Shown: piece by piece, positions 25,310-39,421 of the stretch
How the letters are laid out: every line of letters starts with the position of its first letter
Position numbering within the stretch: the stretch's first letter is position 1
DNA from: Pigmentiphaga humi
GTDB lineage: Bacteria; Pseudomonadota; Gammaproteobacteria; Burkholderiales; Burkholderiaceae_B
NCBI RefSeq assembly: GCF_900606115.1
Contig: NZ_UWPJ01000015.1
Location: 124,001 to 188,000 of the forward strand
Reading direction: 5' to 3'
Length of the DNA stretch: 64,000 nucleotides
Made by a program: the position numbers and the translations under genes
The notes under the pieces: generated by a model
Databases searched by the model: none
Told to the model about the DNA's origin: nothing
Seen by the model: the letters and a program-made list of their open reading frames with translations, nothing else

Positions 25310-26410
25310 TTACCGGCCGGGACTCGGATCCGGGCAGCCGTCCAGCAGGCGCGCCGCCTTGGACGATAAAGCCGCACCGGCGCGGTGGTAGCCAACCACG
25401 CTCGCCACGCTGGCATGGCCCGTCATCGCCATGATCTCGCCCAGCGCCAATCCCTGGCGGCCGGCCTCGGTCACGAATCCCGAACGCAGGCTGTGAGCGC
25501 CGTAGTCGCCCTCCAGACCAGCCTGCGCCGCCCGCTTGCGCACGATGTGCCGGACCGACTCGGGTCCCAGCCCCTCGGCAACGACGCCGCCGCGCCGCAC
25601 CCGCCGGAAAATCGGGCCTTCCTGGATGCCCGCGGCGGCGAGCCAGGCATCCAGTGCCTGCGCAGCCCGCCCGACGATGGGCTTGTGGTTGTCGGCGCGT
25701 TCGGCGCCTTGCTGGTTGGTCTTGGAATGGCCGAGCGTGTAGAGGAAACCGTCGCCGCTGCGGCGCGTATTTTCCATCGTGGCGCGTACGACTTCCGAGC
25801 GCCGGCGTCCGCCGCTGGCCCAGGCGAAGAGCAGCAGGGCGCGGTCGCGCAAACCGGTGAGCGTGTCGTCGCAAGTGGCCAGCAAGCGCTCCAGCGGCTC
25901 GCGCGTGAGCGCGTCCTTGCGGGCAGGCTGCTCGCCACGGCGGGCATAGGCGCTGCGCACCCGCGACAGTACGGTCTGCACGGCCTGCGTGCGGCACGGA
26001 TTGGGCAGCCCTCGTAGCTCGTGCGCTTCCGACAGCACCGCCAGCCGGTGGCGCACGGTGGCAAGCTTGAAAGAGCCCGCCGCGCGCTTGACCCGCGCAG
26101 CGACCAGCGCGGCATCGACGTCGGGCGGCAGGTCATAGGCAATGCCGGAAGGCGCCGCATGGCCGACGTGATCGGCGATGAACTGCAAAACCGCCGCCGC
26201 AGGCAAGGGCAGGACCAGCGGCGCCCCCAGCCGCAGCGCGTGCCATGCCGCCCAATACCGGATGGCGGCCCGGTAGGACGCCTGCGTATGCCGGGAACTG
26301 CCTTCACGCAGCAAGGCGCGGATGGAGTCCGCGCTCGCGCCGGAAATGTCCACGGCTTCCCCTGGCAGGACGGCGGAATCGGGAGCGTCGCCAAACGGCA
26401 CGATTTTCAT
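25310..26410 (-). CDS. Tyrosine-type site-specific recombinase/integrase
   Basis: 366 residues. The N-terminal SAM-like DNA-binding region (about 30-130, RHTQASYRAAIRYWAAWH) precedes a complete catalytic domain: the R202-R204 cluster in SGGRRRSE, K230 (GHSK), H306 and R309 (HSLRSG), H332 (TGHAS) and nucleophile Y341. All expected catalytic residues are present, so it looks active. It diverges from a KfrA-like gene across an AT-rich region; no phage, transposon or conjugation gene lies nearby. That makes it an orphan recombinase of unknown target. Confidence 0.92.
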   Translation of the reverse strand: MKIVPFGDAPDSAVLPGEAVDISGASADSIRALLREGSSRHTQASYRAAIRYWAAWHALRLGAPLVLPLPAAAVLQFIADHVGHAAPSGIAYDLPPDVDAALVAARVKRAAGSFKLATVRHRLAVLSEAHELRGLPNPCRTQAVQTVLSRVRSAYARRGEQPARKDALTREPLERLLATCDDTLTGLRDRALLLFAWASGGRRRSEVVRATMENTRRSGDGFLYTLGHSKTNQQGAERADNHKPIVGRAAQALDAWLAAAGIQEGPIFRRVRRGGVVAEGLGPESVRHIVRKRAAQAGLEGDYGAHSLRSGFVTEAGRQGLALGEIMAMTGHASVASVVGYHRAGAALSSKAARLLDGCPDPSPGR

Positions 26411-26600
26411 AGCTTTCTATCCATGAAATTGACTACGAGAGTCTTTTATGTATCATATATTATGTATTACGTAGTAAATATTACGCATATATGAAATTAC
26501 ATCGGATAACTTTTAATTATCCAATGTAATTTGCCAACAACCCGGCCGCATTGGAAAAAACCGTCGCGTGGCTTGGTCAGCGGGAGCCCAGGAGAAGTGG
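26411..26600. promoter_or_regulatory. AT-rich palindromic region between integrase and KfrA-like genes
   Basis: This 190-bp divergent region is far more AT-rich than anything else nearby. It contains AAATTACATCGGATAA (26494-26509) and TTATCCAATGTAATTT (26517-26532), 16-bp arms with one mismatch around CTTTTAA. There are also two ATTACG copies 14 bp apart (26466 and 26480) and several TATGTAT/CATATAT runs. It is a probable operator/promoter region and a candidate recombinase or KfrA binding site. Confidence 0.65.
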
Positions 26601-27647
26601 ATGGCTGTGGGAATACAGGAAATCGACGTGTGGACGGCTGCGGACTCGCTGCTCCGGAAGGGCGAACAGCCGACCATAGAGCGCGTGCGGCTGCACCTGG
26701 GCCGGGGGTCGCCGAATACGGTCGGCCCACATTTGAAGGCCTGGTTCCGTTCACTAGGGGAGCGGCTGGCTGGGCAGCCGGGCGCATCGCAGCCGCCGGG
26801 ACCGGTGGCCGAGGCGGCAAACCAGCTCTGGCGCGTCGCCATGGACGCCGCGCGCGGCCACGCCGAGGCCGTGCTCGCAAGCGAGCGGGCCCGGCTCCAG
26901 GACTGGGCTGCTGAGCTGGATGCCCGAGCCCGGGAAGTGGAACAGGAGGCGGACAGGCAAGCGGCCCGCGCGGCGGGACTCGAGTCAGCGCTGCAAGGGG
27001 CGCAGGCCCAGGCCAGAAGCGCCGAAGAGCGGCTGCGTGGCCTGGAAGCGCAGTTGGGCGAGCGCGAAACCCGGCTGGAGTCCTTGCGCGGCCAGGTCGC
27101 GGCCCAACAGAAGGCATGGCAGGACCAGGCCGGCGAACTCGAGCGCATGCGCCGGACCCACGACGCCGCGCTGCTGCAGTCGCAGGAACGCCATGCGGCG
27201 CACGAACGGCGCTGGCTCGGCGAACTGGACGGCTTGCGCCAGGCGCTGAAGAAGTCGCAGGAAGACCAGGCGCATCTGCGCGAGGAAGCCGAACGCGAGC
27301 GCGAGCGGCAGCGCCTGGCCCGCGACGCATGGCAGGAGGAAAAACTCGCCTACGAACGCGCCGCCGCAGCGGCGGGCCATGCGCTGGAAACCGCCAGGGT
27401 CCAGCGCGAAGCCAGCGCCGAGGCGCAGGCGCGCACGCAGGCGGATATCGAACGGCAAGGGCGGGACTGGCGCGCACGGCACGAGGAATGGCTGGCGCAA
27501 GGCGCGGCCAAGGACAGGCAGATCGAGGCTTTGACCCGGGCGTTGCAGGAACAGGCCGGGCGGGACGGCGCGGGCGAGACCGGCAGGAGGCGGGCGAAAT
27601 CGCCTGGCAAATCGGCGGCGCGGGACCCGGGAAAGGGCGGCGCCTGA
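26601..27647 (+). CDS. KfrA-like DNA-binding coiled-coil protein
   Basis: 348 residues from ATG 26601 (AGGAGAAG upstream). The N-terminal KfrA-type winged-helix region (about 3-60: VWTAADSLLRKGEQPTIERV, GRGSPNTVGPHLKAW) binds DNA in plasmid homologues. A very long alpha-helical coiled coil rich in Ala, Gln, Glu and Arg runs from about 75 to 320, and the tail is basic (RRRAKSPGKSAARDPGKGG). Plasmid KfrA proteins autoregulate and affect partitioning; chromosomal copies beside a divergent integrase have no known job that I can name. Confidence 0.87.
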   Translation: MAVGIQEIDVWTAADSLLRKGEQPTIERVRLHLGRGSPNTVGPHLKAWFRSLGERLAGQPGASQPPGPVAEAANQLWRVAMDAARGHAEAVLASERARLQDWAAELDARAREVEQEADRQAARAAGLESALQGAQAQARSAEERLRGLEAQLGERETRLESLRGQVAAQQKAWQDQAGELERMRRTHDAALLQSQERHAAHERRWLGELDGLRQALKKSQEDQAHLREEAERERERQRLARDAWQEEKLAYERAAAAAGHALETARVQREASAEAQARTQADIERQGRDWRARHEEWLAQGAAKDRQIEALTRALQEQAGRDGAGETGRRRAKSPGKSAARDPGKGGA

Positions 27648-27687: not shown

Positions 27688-28455
27688 TCAGTCGTGATCG
27701 TCCGCGCGGCTTTCCACGCGCACGACGATGGCCACGCAAAGAATCACCATGGCGGCCATGGCGAACCAGGTGAGCGCATAGGACAGGTGGTTGTTGGGAA
27801 AATCGAGCACGGTCAGCCCGGGAACCGGGGCCACGGCGGGATCCGGCGCGGCGGCCCCGGTCTTTTCCGCATCGATGAAGTAGGGCGCCGCCTCGGCCAG
27901 TCCGCGCTTGGCGGCGATGGCCTGGGTGTCGCGCGAGTACCAGAGATCCTGGGACGGATCGTTGTGGCGGAAGAAGCGGAAATCCGGCTCGGACATCCGC
28001 AGCAGGCCCGGCACCACGGCCTCGCCGGCCGGCTCTGCCTTGTCCTGGCGCTTGCGCCAGGCGGGAAGCACGAAGCCCCGGTTGATCAGCACCGTGCCGC
28101 CGCCGCGCATCTGCATGGGCGTCATGACCCAGTACCCGCTGCCGTAATCGGTCGCGGCCTGGACCAGGGTTTCCTGGTCGTAGCGCAGTATGCCGGTAGC
28201 GGCGACGTTGCGGTATTCGTCGCCGTCGCGGCTCAGCGACGGCCATTGCGCGGGGCCGGGAGCCTCTGTGGCGGGCCGGTGGACGCGCTGCTCGACCTGC
28301 GAGATCAGCTCCAGCTTCCAGGCGCGGCGCTGCATCTGCCAGACGCCCAGCGAGCAGAATCCCGCGACCAGGATGGCCGCCAACGCGATCAGGAAGAAAA
28401 ACCTCGCCGCATTGCGCGGCCTGGAGGGTACTTGCTTGGCGGAAGAAGGGTTCAA
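27688..28455 (-). CDS. SURF1-family oxidase assembly protein
   Basis: 255 residues from a TTG that overlaps the cyoD stop codon (CCTTGAAC). No ATG or GTG is available between cyoD and the first helix; the in-frame ATG further up lies deep inside cyoD. N-terminal membrane helix about 20-40 (FFFLIALAAILVAGFCSLGVWQM), periplasmic domain with ILRYDQETLVQAA and VLINRGFVLP, C-terminal helix about 227-247. SURF1 aids haem insertion into terminal oxidases; position at the end of cyoABCD suggests it serves this quinol oxidase. Confidence 0.85.
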   Translation of the reverse strand: MNPSSAKQVPSRPRNAARFFFLIALAAILVAGFCSLGVWQMQRRAWKLELISQVEQRVHRPATEAPGPAQWPSLSRDGDEYRNVAATGILRYDQETLVQAATDYGSGYWVMTPMQMRGGGTVLINRGFVLPAWRKRQDKAEPAGEAVVPGLLRMSEPDFRFFRHNDPSQDLWYSRDTQAIAAKRGLAEAAPYFIDAEKTGAAAPDPAVAPVPGLTVLDFPNNHLSYALTWFAMAAMVILCVAIVVRVESRADDHD

Positions 28456-28841
28456 GGCCTGTTTCGCATGTCGACCGGCGACATGGGCATCATGTTGTGA
28501 TCCAGGTGGTACATGATCCAGATGGAGCCGCTGAGCGTGATGACCACCAGCACCAGCGTGAACACGATGGCAAGCACGTTCCACCCTTCCTCGGCCCGGA
28601 AGTCGAGGTGCAGAAAGTATACGACATGCACCACGATCTGGACGGCGGCGATGGCCAGGATCACCAGGCTGGTGATGCGGGAGCTGGAGAAGGCTTCGCC
28701 CATGACGATGATGAAGGGAATGGCGGTCAGGATGACCGCGAAGATGAAGCCCAGCAGGTAGCCGTGCAGCGAAGCATGGGCCAGGGGATCGTCTTCCCCG
28801 TGGTGCTGGCCGTGGTGGTTGGAGACGCTCGGCGAACTCAT
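28452..28841 (-). CDS. cyoD: Cytochrome bo3 ubiquinol oxidase subunit IV
   Basis: 129 residues, three transmembrane helices (about 26-48, 54-76, 88-110). The N-terminus is His-rich and cytoplasmic ([11 protein letters not shown]), followed by [20 protein letters not shown], typical of CyoD. It overlaps cyoC by 4 nt and the surf1 start by 4 nt. Accessory subunit that stabilises the catalytic core. Confidence 0.95.
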
Positions 28842-29467
28842 GACAGGACCCCCATCAGGTAGACCACGGTAAAGACGCCGATCCAGATCACGTCGAGGAA
28901 GTGCCAGAACATCGACAGGCACATCAACCGGCGCTTGTTCGCGATGGTCAGGCCGTGCATGCCGATCTGCGCCATCAGCACCGCCAGCCAGACGATGCCG
29001 AAAGTCACGTGCAGTCCGTGCGTGCCGACCAGCGTGAAAAACGACGACAGGAACGCGCTGCGCTGGGGGCCGGCGCCCTCGTGGATCAGGTGGGCGAATT
29101 CATAGAGTTCCAGCGCCAGGAAGCCCGCGCCTAGCAGGCCGGTGACGGCCAGCCATCCCTGCACCGATCCGGTCCGACCCTTGCGGCCTTGCAGCAGCGC
29201 GAATCCGTAAGTGATCGAAGAAAACAGCAGCAGCGCGGTGTTGACCGCCACCAGGGGCAGGTCGAACAGGTCTGCGCCGGTCGGGCCGCCGTCGTAGCTG
29301 CGGCCCAGGACCCCATACGTGGCGAACAGGCACGCGAAGACGAGGCAATCGCTCATCAGGTACACCCAGAAACCGAGCAGGGTGCCGTTCTTCACATGGT
29401 GTTCGCTCGCGAGGTAGAACTGCCGACCGGCGTCGGCTTGCACGGTGGAGGCGGAGAGTTCAGGCAT
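28838..29467 (-). CDS. cyoC: Cytochrome bo3 ubiquinol oxidase subunit III
   Basis: 209 residues with five membrane helices, matching CyoC (E. coli 204 aa). Motifs include [40 protein letters not shown] and [13 protein letters not shown]. The start at ATG 29467 overlaps the cyoB stop by 8 nt; open sequence upstream belongs to cyoB in another frame. Confidence 0.95.
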
Positions 29468-31463
29468 GGCTGGCCAGCAGTTGGGTGCGTTCGGCTTCGC
29501 AGCGGGCGACGGTGTCGGCCGGCACGTAGTAGTCGCGGTGGTAGTTGAAGGCATGGACGATGGTGACGGCGATCAGCGCGGCGAAGGCCAGGCCGGCCAG
29601 CAGCCACATGTACCAGATCAGCGCGAAGCCCAGCACCAGCGAGATGCCGCCGAGCACGATGCCGGCCCAGGTGTTGGCGGGCATGTGGATGGGAATGAAG
29701 CCGCCCTGCGGCCGGACGTAGCCCAGCTGCTTCATGTGCCACCAGGCATCGCGGTCGTGCACGACCGGGGTGAAGGCGAAGTTGTAGACCGGCGGCGGCG
29801 ACGAGGTCGACCACTCGAGGTTGCGGCCGTCCCATGGGTCGCCGGTGGTGTCGCGCAGCGACTCGCGCCTGCGGAAGCTCACGACCAGCTGGATCAGGAA
29901 GCAGGCGATGCCGGCGGCGATCAGCAGGGCGCCCACGGCGGCGAGCTGGAACCAGATCTGCAGGGAGGGGTCCTGGAAGTGGCTCATCCGGCGCGTGACG
30001 CCCAGCAGCCCGAGCACGTAGAGCGGCATGAACGCGAGGTAGAAGCCGACCAGCCAGAGCCAGAACGACCATTTGCCCCAGAACGGATCCAGCCGGTATC
30101 CGAAAGCCTTGGGGAACCAGTAGGTGATGCCGGCCAGCAGGCCGAACAGCACGCCGCCGATGATGACGTTGTGGAAGTGCGCGACCAGGAACAGGCTGTT
30201 GTGCAGCGCGAAGTCGGCGGGCGGCACGGCCAGCAGCACGCCGGTCATGCCGCCGATAACGAAGGTCACCATGAAGCCGACCGTCCACAGCATCGGCACC
30301 TCGAAGCGGATGCGCCCGCGGTACATGGTGAACAGCCAGTTGAACACCTTCGCTCCCGTCGGGATCGAGATGATCATCGTGGTGATGCCGAAGAAGGAGT
30401 TGACGCTGGCCCCCGATCCCATCGTGAAGAAATGGTGCAGCCAGACGAGGTAGGACAGCACGGTAATGACGACCGTGGCATAGACCATGGAGGCATAGCC
30501 GAACAGCCGCTTGCGGCAGAAGGTCGGCACGACCTCGGAGAAGATGCCGAAGGCGGGCAGCACGAGGATGTAGACCTCGGGGTGGCCCCAGATCCAGATC
30601 AGATTGATGTACATCATCGCGTTGCCGCCGCCGTCCGCCGTGAAGAAGTTGGTGCCGAGGTAGCGGTCGAGCGACAGCAGCGCCAGCACCGCGGTCAGCA
30701 CCGGGAAGGCGGCGATGATCAGGATGTTGGTGCAAAGCGAGGTCCAGGTGAAGATCGGCATGCGCATCATGTGCATGCCCGGGGCGCGCATCTTGACGAT
30801 GGTAACGAGCAGGTTGATGCCGGACAGCAGCGTGCCCACCCCGGCTATCTGCAATGCCCAGATGTAGTAGTCCACCCCCACGTCGGGACTGTGCAGGATG
30901 CCCGAAAGCGGCGGGTAGGCCAGCCAGCCCGTGCGGGCGAACTCGCCGACGAACAGCGACATCATGACCAGCACCGCGCCCGCGGTGGTCATCCAGAAGC
31001 TGAAGTTGTTCAGGAAAGGAAAGGCGACGTCGCGCGCGCCGATCTGCAGCGGCACGATGTAGTTCATCAGGCCGGTGACCAGGGGCATGGCCACGAAGAA
31101 GATCATGATCACGCCGTGCGCGGTGAAGATCTGATCGTAGTGGTGCGGCGGCAGATAGCCCAGGTTGTCGCCGAAGGCGATGGCCTGCTGCGCCCGCATC
31201 ATCAGCGCGTCGGCAAAGCCGCGCAGCAGCATGATCAATCCCAGCACCACGTACATGATCCCGATCTTCTTGTGGTCGATGCTGGTGAACCATTCGCGCC
31301 ACAGATAGCCCCACAGGCGGTAATAGGTGAGGACGCCGACCAGGGCGAGCCCGCCCAGCAGGACCGCGATGAACGTGATCAGGAGGATGGGCTCGTGGTA
31401 CGGGATGGCTTCCCAGCTCAGGCGTCCGAACAAGAGGCTGTCGGTGGCGAGATGATCGGGCAT
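29460..31463 (-). CDS. cyoB: Cytochrome bo3 ubiquinol oxidase subunit I (catalytic)
   Basis: 667 residues, haem-copper oxidase subunit I. Ligands align with E. coli CyoB at a +10 offset: H116 (low-spin haem, FTAHGV), H294 and Y298 (WGHPEVY, CuB and cross-linked Tyr), H343/H344 (WLHHFF), H429 and H431 (VAHFHNV). ATG 31463 has AGGA about 7 nt upstream; a TTG 15 nt earlier is less suitable. It oxidises ubiquinol, reduces O2 to water and pumps protons in the inner membrane. Confidence 0.97.
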
Positions 31464-31506
31464 TTGGCGTTCCTGCAAGATTCGTCGGGCGTGGACTCGG
31501 GCGGCG

Positions 31507-39264: not shown

Positions 39265-39337
39265 TCGCCGTTCCTTCCATGGGTAGGCCCATGCCTAAGC
39301 AAGCAATGTGCCGTGGGCGCCCACATTTGATACTTTA

Positions 39338-39353
39338 CATAATATACATTATG
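39338..39353. promoter_or_regulatory. AT-rich palindrome upstream of the MFS gene
   Basis: CATAAT-ATAC-ATTATG: perfect 6-bp arms in an AT-rich patch (about 39326-39365) that stands out from its GC-rich surroundings. It is placed to act as an operator for the minus-strand MFS gene at 39264; the regulator is unknown. Confidence 0.5.
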
Positions 39354-39421
39354 CGTATATTGAAGCCGGAGAAAGGAGGCGCCTTACTCGCGTAAAAAAC
39401 GGCGTTTCCCCACTCGTCCAT

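Follow-up and report, generated by a model that had tools for sequence, protein, structure and literature searches.

A divergent pair of genes, encoding a tyrosine recombinase and a KfrA-like protein, together with the composite site between them, appears to form an rst-type resolution module without a transposon at the chromosome terminus of Pigmentiphaga humi. We take it to be most likely an accessory dimer-resolution system that would work beside XerCD/dif, a reading of moderate confidence that is inferred without activity, binding or phenotype data. The stretch of DNA analyzed, referred to as the window, comprises 64,000 nucleotides (contig NZ_UWPJ01000015.1, positions 124,001 to 188,000). 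The comparisons reported here establish the gene content, the anatomy of the site, and the conservation, location and polarity of the module.

The recombinase gene (25310 to 26410, minus strand) was defined by its open reading frame, Pfam match, catalytic residues and a profile match to Cre. It encodes a Cre-like tyrosine recombinase of 366 amino acids with a putative TnpS-like role, which matches Phage_integrase in Pfam with an E value of 2.4e-13. The initial annotation had called this recombinase catalytically complete, and this held: R, K, H-x-x-R, H and Y are all present. These residues are invariant in the 59 aligned recombinases, the window copy included, as scored from the alignment and not from motif patterns, which missed residues or matched by chance in some rows. 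TnpS of Tn4651, placed in the same alignment, keeps K, H, R and Y but shows W in place of the second H, and its first motif contains one R. When a profile was built from the recombinase together with five named relatives, the best-matching solved structures were Cre chains (a Cre derivative at 1.6e-15 and Cre at 2.2e-15), with archaeal Xer chains ranking behind (5.9e-4 and 8.4e-4). The XerC/XerD equivalog test was failed by the recombinase, with 39.1 and 32.9 bits versus cut-offs of 335 and 330. The predicted structure is poor (mean pLDDT of 63.3), and the fold matches to Cre obtained with this low-confidence model, which have TM-scores below 0.45 and rmsd mostly above 10, were weighed only jointly with the sequence profile result.

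The partner gene (26601 to 27647, plus strand; defined by its open reading frame and Pfam) encodes a KfrA_N coiled-coil DNA-binding protein of 348 amino acids with a putative TnpT-like role. Its match to KfrA_N (E value of 1.3e-24) is the only one in the window genome at a cut-off of E 0.001, and KfrA_N was found in 118 of 268 family genomes. The motif AGGAGA lies immediately 5' of the ATG at 26601; a longer frame starting from the GTG at 26568 is a possible alternative.

The gap between the divergent genes (26411 to 26600) is 190 bp long and AT-rich, with a GC content of 0.38 across 26400 to 26599 versus approximately 0.7 on either side. It contains a core-like recombination site (26494 to 26532, no strand assigned), in which two 16-bp arms (26494 to 26509 and 26517 to 26532) enclose an asymmetric 7-bp center, CTTTTAA (26510 to 26516). 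The arms are 94% complementary (15/16) and 7 nt apart, and the inverted repeat holds GATAA-N7-TTATC. The arrangement first proposed, a recombinase and a KfrA-like protein diverging from an AT-rich region of 190 bp that holds a 16/16 inverted repeat, was thus confirmed. Of 47 stretches (window counted), 39 carry the exact core on the side of the recombinase start that faces kfrA, and plasmid L051 carries it with one mismatch. No core was seen in 7 of the 47 (L058, L062, L064, L068, L080, L092 and L053), five of which belong to genus g10; in these five the core was later located beside kfrA, 19 to 63 kb from the recombinase. The 7-bp center is often common to close relatives and is different in the plasmid copies read. 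As a separate observation, two Achromobacter plasmids carry an extra gene between kfrA and the recombinase (L050:6932-7738 and L051:6931-7737), for which there was no Pfam match.

A second conserved element (26448 to 26488, no strand assigned) stands in fixed register with the core and is shared by relatives at roughly 17 to 57 bp upstream of it. We presume that this accessory element is the KfrA binding site, although binding is inferred. In an ungapped alignment anchored on the core, made with 48 of 51 relatives (mutual identity below 80%), the element reached 24.4 bits over positions −70 to −17, versus 5.0 on average and at most 7.2 for 500 shifted-register controls. These controls break register and not ancestry, so part of the signal reflects descent; the core served as the alignment anchor, so that its own score is no test. 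The inverted repeat is beyond chance, because the exact core recurs across the stretches in register with this second element.

One alternative is that the core is an attachment site that captures circular cargo between the recombinase and kfrA. In its favor, 0.7 to 63 kb of DNA lies between the recombinase and the core or kfrA in some Achromobacter and in the five g10 genomes (in some relatives the recombinase gene is 19 to 63 kb away from kfrA and the core), and passenger genes between tnpS and tnpT have been described for TnXocp1 and its relatives (PMC4619425). However, in the six Achromobacter stretches with DNA between the two genes there is one intact core, which remains beside kfrA, and not two flanking the insert, and most loci are without an insert. 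Integration and excision is therefore a very unlikely function of the site.

Both genes are under purifying selection, on the basis of uncorrected pN/pS values of 0.15 to 0.29 for the recombinase (five groups) versus 0.28 to 0.35 for kfrA (four groups), which makes the recombinase the more constrained of the two. Decay among relatives is rare, yet present: the recombinase of G121 is a fragment with two stops, and that of G122 (G122:C11, L167) is split by approximately 8 kb of inserted DNA, its N-terminal piece still adjoining kfrA and the core. The five neighboring proteins scanned were a universal stress protein (Usp), an MFS transporter, SURF1 and cytochrome oxidase subunits IV and III, with no transposase among them. 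The SURF1/cytochrome oxidase cluster (window 27688 to 31478) adjoins the pair, and hence lies near dif, in the window and in L060 and L065 of another genus. Among the 10 other genomes of the window's genus, SURF1 is present in only 3, roughly 0.27 to 0.32 Mb from dif, and for this reason the sister species could not be used as an empty-site comparison.

Some other candidate explanations were rejected. An inversion switch was rejected for the window genome, which holds only one exact core and no second, inverted site; mismatched core matches, with 9 forward and 12 reverse, are close to the control values of 7 and 10. Anti-phage defense found no meaningful model match (none for the recombinase; 0.26 or weaker for KfrA). 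A mobile island is unsupported, since the window lacks tRNA genes and the GC content shows no step around the gene pair; the search did not directly cover island borders or Tn3-type terminal repeats.

The initial annotation had read the pair as a self-contained two-gene system and not a degraded element with cargo. This is supported, since the catalytic residues are invariant, the composite site is conserved, selection is purifying, and the pair's recombinase is present in 41 of 43 genomes of Achromobacter (genus g2; in one of the 41 as fragments). The same check of conservation found it in only 1 of 11 genomes of the window's own genus, so that sporadic occurrence with decay, which had been named as grounds for refutation, is met in part: occurrence in the genus is sporadic, and decay is rare. 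As for the four functions offered, dimer resolution fits, perhaps with terminus organization, while inversion fails in the window genome and defense is left without a meaningful match. The chromosomal dif had been missed altogether.

This dif, the target of XerCD, lies at 39332 to 39355 (minus strand), in the same window as the gene pair and 13 kb from it, and is identical over its 24 bases to that of B. pertussis (PMC2731167). It is used here as a positional reference and is not part of the pair. On the 212-kb contig, all 33 GGGNAGGG octamers precede dif (33/33), and the CCCTNCCC octamers (n = 15) are divided into 5 before and 10 after it. Octamers of this kind act as KOPS in E. coli. The window spans the replication terminus, and the direction of these KOPS-like octamers switches on the contig. 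The cumulative GC skew peaks at contig position 186,922, away from dif (163,332), and forms a plateau between the two; the placement of the terminus rests on dif and the octamer switch, not on GC skew.

The position of the pair relative to dif follows a strict rule. For the 67 recombinase copies on a dif-bearing contig, the distance to dif ranges from 1.2 to 174.7 kb, with a median of 46 kb, and every placed copy (67/67, from 11 lineages and 19 gene neighborhoods) is transcribed away from dif. Sixty of the 67 are on the strand of dif, and the other 7 are on the opposite strand in mirror-image placement. The kfrA gene points toward dif in 69 of 69 cases (63 of the first type, G001, and 5 of a second type described below). 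The requirement for a shared contig biases fragmented genomes toward short distances, which makes the single-contig genomes the fair set; all 17 of these obey both proximity and polarity. The lineages are related and not independent, so simple probabilities overstate the case for polarity, and the coordinates behind the 67/67 and 69/69 counts were entered by hand.

The placed copies come from 62 of the 72 family genomes with a clear recombinase (76 with a recombinase minus the weak or partial G074, G121, G172 and G258) and from 3 of 10 genomes outside the family. Within the family, placement failed where recombinase and dif are on separate contigs (G019, G021, G031, G039, G059, G063, G113 and G126), in G111, where dif was not found, and in G038, whose recombinase is in fragments and which was left out of the dif search. 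Outside the family, unplaced genomes are G315, with copies on a 0.3-Mb plasmid without a dif match, G397, G466 and G996, also without a dif match, and G343, G572 and G991, with dif-like matches on other contigs. G127 and G212 have several dif-like matches, and the one on the recombinase's contig was used; the G122 copy is the split gene.

Five weaker tyrosine recombinase matches served as a control (G015, G047, G049, G074 and a third one in G023), and these lie approximately 1.9, 2.5, 1.85, 0.27 and 0.17 Mb from dif. Proximity to dif is not general for tyrosine recombinases, yet one of the five controls falls within the 175-kb range. The polarity rule is obeyed by G817 (1.2 kb) and G925 (77 kb), which are probably of Xanthomonadales type, a group inferred from kinship to a Xanthomonas plasmid copy in the recombinase tree. 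It is also obeyed by G358, which groups with a named Delftia locus and in which dif, called at 3 mismatches to the Rhodoferax site, follows the stop codon of kfrA by approximately 58 bp, at a distance of 1.1 kb to the core. Two Achromobacter genomes (G017:C1 and G023:C1) were observed to have two recombinase copies on opposite sides of dif, each directed away from it.

A second recombinase family is also paired with KfrA. At 14 of the 17 more distant KfrA loci read (L168, L169, L171-L175, L181-L186 and L188), the divergent tyrosine recombinase is unrelated to that of the window beyond general motifs (BLASTP E value of 0.016). These loci have their own inverted-repeat core, which differs by eye from that of the window (about ATTTGACATTA-N6-TAATGTCAAAT), and carry a similar TATTACGT-type box. 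Five could be placed, at 1.3 to 22.9 kb from dif, and all five recombinases are directed away from it. None of the 14 genomes is among the 76 with the first family; the second-family loci were picked from weaker KfrA matches, and thus this is no blind test of mutual exclusion. In G183 (L185), kfrA lies at the octamer switch, and no dif-like site was found in the 200 kb read around the switch (L220-L229). It is conceivable that the second-type pair stands in for dif in this genome.

The spread of the pair indicates exchange between genomes. The 50 loci fall into 21 contexts when at least two shared flanking genes are required and into 14 with at least one; the window context is common to two loci of genus g8 (L060 and L065). 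The recombinase tree (60 rows) does not track genera, with g8 in three groups and plasmid copies nested inside, and TnpS and several other rows are on very long branches, so that their placement is unsure. In Achromobacter G016, G040 and G042 the recombinase is from another clade and at another locus, still 7 to 52 kb from dif. With dif placed in 19 of the 21 contexts (all except L059 and L164), the polarity rule survives changes of neighborhood, recombinase lineage and recombinase family, and is not mere synteny. At a cut-off of E 1e-40, and with the window's own genome counted, the recombinase is present in 11 of 399 genomes drawn from the order and in 7 of 369 from the class. Given the single recombinase-bearing genome among the 11 of the window's genus, and the absence of a KfrA_N match in 7 of those 11, the pair is dispensable; it is also horizontally exchanged, and the same pair is found on large plasmids. 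The system is thus useful or self-maintaining, and not essential.

This distribution raises the possibility of hitch-hiking, in which plasmids or elements with the pair enter at or near dif via XerCD, decay, and leave a functionless pair behind. The presence of the pair on large plasmids, the nesting of those copies in the chromosomal tree, the patchy distribution, and the decayed copies in G121 and G122 all speak for it. Insertion at dif would, however, fix the strand, whereas strand and side switch together in the 7 mirror-image cases, and only the rule of transcription away from dif is kept. Long-term conservation in Achromobacter with conserved neighbors and the purifying selection also argue against this explanation, which we regard as unlikely.

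A further alternative is that KfrA is the functional product and acts as a terminus organizer, anchoring or condensing the terminus, with the recombinase as a passenger or as a regulator of KfrA. It is supported by the fact that kfrA and the core remain together where the recombinase gene is displaced, by the filaments and partition-linked roles of KfrA reported for plasmids, and by G001, whose KfrA_N gene is 82 kb from dif and has neither recombinase family in the surrounding 20 kb that were read. Against it, the recombinase is more constrained than kfrA, its catalytic residues do not vary, and the arms and center of the core are conserved. We likewise consider an organizer role alone unlikely.

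In the dimer-resolution reading that we prefer, the Cre-like recombinase would bind both arms and swap strands across the asymmetric 7-bp center. KfrA, bound to the neighboring element, would bridge two site copies or impose a shape on them, and would favor crossovers between sites that lie in direct repeat on the same molecule. Regulation of the two divergent genes by KfrA is also possible. One site per chromosome would then yield monomers from dimeric chromosomes, or from chromosome cointegrates, beside XerCD/dif. The terminus position and fixed polarity would suit action where sister chromosomes separate last, and the trigger could be a motor or a fork that comes from the direction of the origin. 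Binding, crossover, the product (dimer or cointegrate resolution), directional triggering and any link to FtsK are all inferred, and the fixed polarity is merely suggestive of a possible activation by FtsK. Several findings speak against dimer resolution: the pair is dispensable, XerCD/dif is present in the same genomes, the recombinase gene is displaced from kfrA and the core in some relatives, and the core can be up to approximately 175 kb from dif. Such a distance exceeds what an FtsK-dependent dif is generally held to tolerate.

A bolder and more tentative reading is that recombination systems assisted by KfrA arose at least twice, with tyrosine recombinases unrelated to each other, and provide the chromosomes of Burkholderiales and Xanthomonadales with a second terminus machinery that is sensitive to direction. 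Its site would have to face along the origin-to-terminus axis, being driven by FtsK or the replication fork, and the machinery would cooperate with XerCD/dif or be able to replace it. Xer acting at dif is generally held to resolve chromosome dimers. A non-Xer recombinase that is retained near dif with its helper and composite site, in a single polarity in several lineages and in two families, would imply that XerCD does not process the terminus alone. It would also make testable whether site orientation on the origin-to-terminus axis matters, assign a candidate chromosomal role to KfrA, a protein known chiefly from plasmids, and show a route from plasmid or transposon resolution systems to chromosomal ones.

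In the open-licence literature searched (titles, abstract openings and passages), we found no description of a terminus-resident KfrA/recombinase pair with polarity relative to dif, and this strict polarity is, within that literature, apparently undescribed. The closest system is that of Tn4651 and its relatives in the Tn3 family. In Tn4651, the tyrosine recombinase TnpS and its helper TnpT, described as being without apparent homology to other proteins (PMC7157771), diverge around rst, which consists of a TnpT accessory site and a TnpS core (PMC4619425). We observed that TnpT of pWW0 matches KfrA_N at 2.6e-26; it was identified from position and arrangement, as the record names neither gene. 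Over 266 amino acids, Tn4651 TnpS and the window recombinase share 29% identity, and TnpT matches the window KfrA protein in pairwise BLASTP with an E value of 3e-5 over 131 amino acids. In both systems, the genes of a tyrosine recombinase and of a KfrA_N coiled-coil helper diverge from a core and accessory site, and the window meets the sequence features of TnpS/TnpT/rst, namely a complete recombinase, a divergent TnpT-type helper and a core with an accessory site, the binding being inferred. Some relatives of the window pair have genes between the recombinase and kfrA, like the passengers between tnpS and tnpT in TnXocp1 and its relatives. In our reading of the sequences, the accessory element is on the recombinase side of the core in the window, whereas it is on the tnpT side in Tn4651. 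The window pair is also chromosomal, beside dif and of fixed polarity, and it is not filed as a member of the TnpS/TnpT/rst group, although it would work in the same way, because that group belongs to Tn3-family transposons with tnpA and terminal repeats, and there is no transposase among the five neighbors scanned.

Cre of phage P1 is the source of the nearest structures by profile and also acts as a single recombinase. Its site, loxP, has two arms around a short asymmetric center, as does the window core. The center in the window is, however, 7 bp long and not 8 bp, and an accessory element and a dedicated helper are present. KfrA of IncP and IncU plasmids shares the KfrA_N head and the long helical tail with the window protein; neither of two KfrA papers searched contains the terms recombinase, resolv- or TnpT. 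XerS/dif-SL and XerH/difH also link a recombinase gene to its own terminus site, but they are described as the Xer system of their chromosome, whereas the window genome also has dif and the partner is KfrA. Enterobacterial replicons above 250 kb are reported to have a XerCD site in all cases, from which it was concluded that FtsK control is used (PMC11724359), and a second, non-Xer terminus system is unexpected for this reason. Like XerCD/dif, the window pair is a terminus tyrosine recombination system with one short site per chromosome, and its site meets the XerCD/dif criterion of terminus location. It differs in being a single recombinase with its own helper and a site unlike dif, and the two systems coexist in the same genome.
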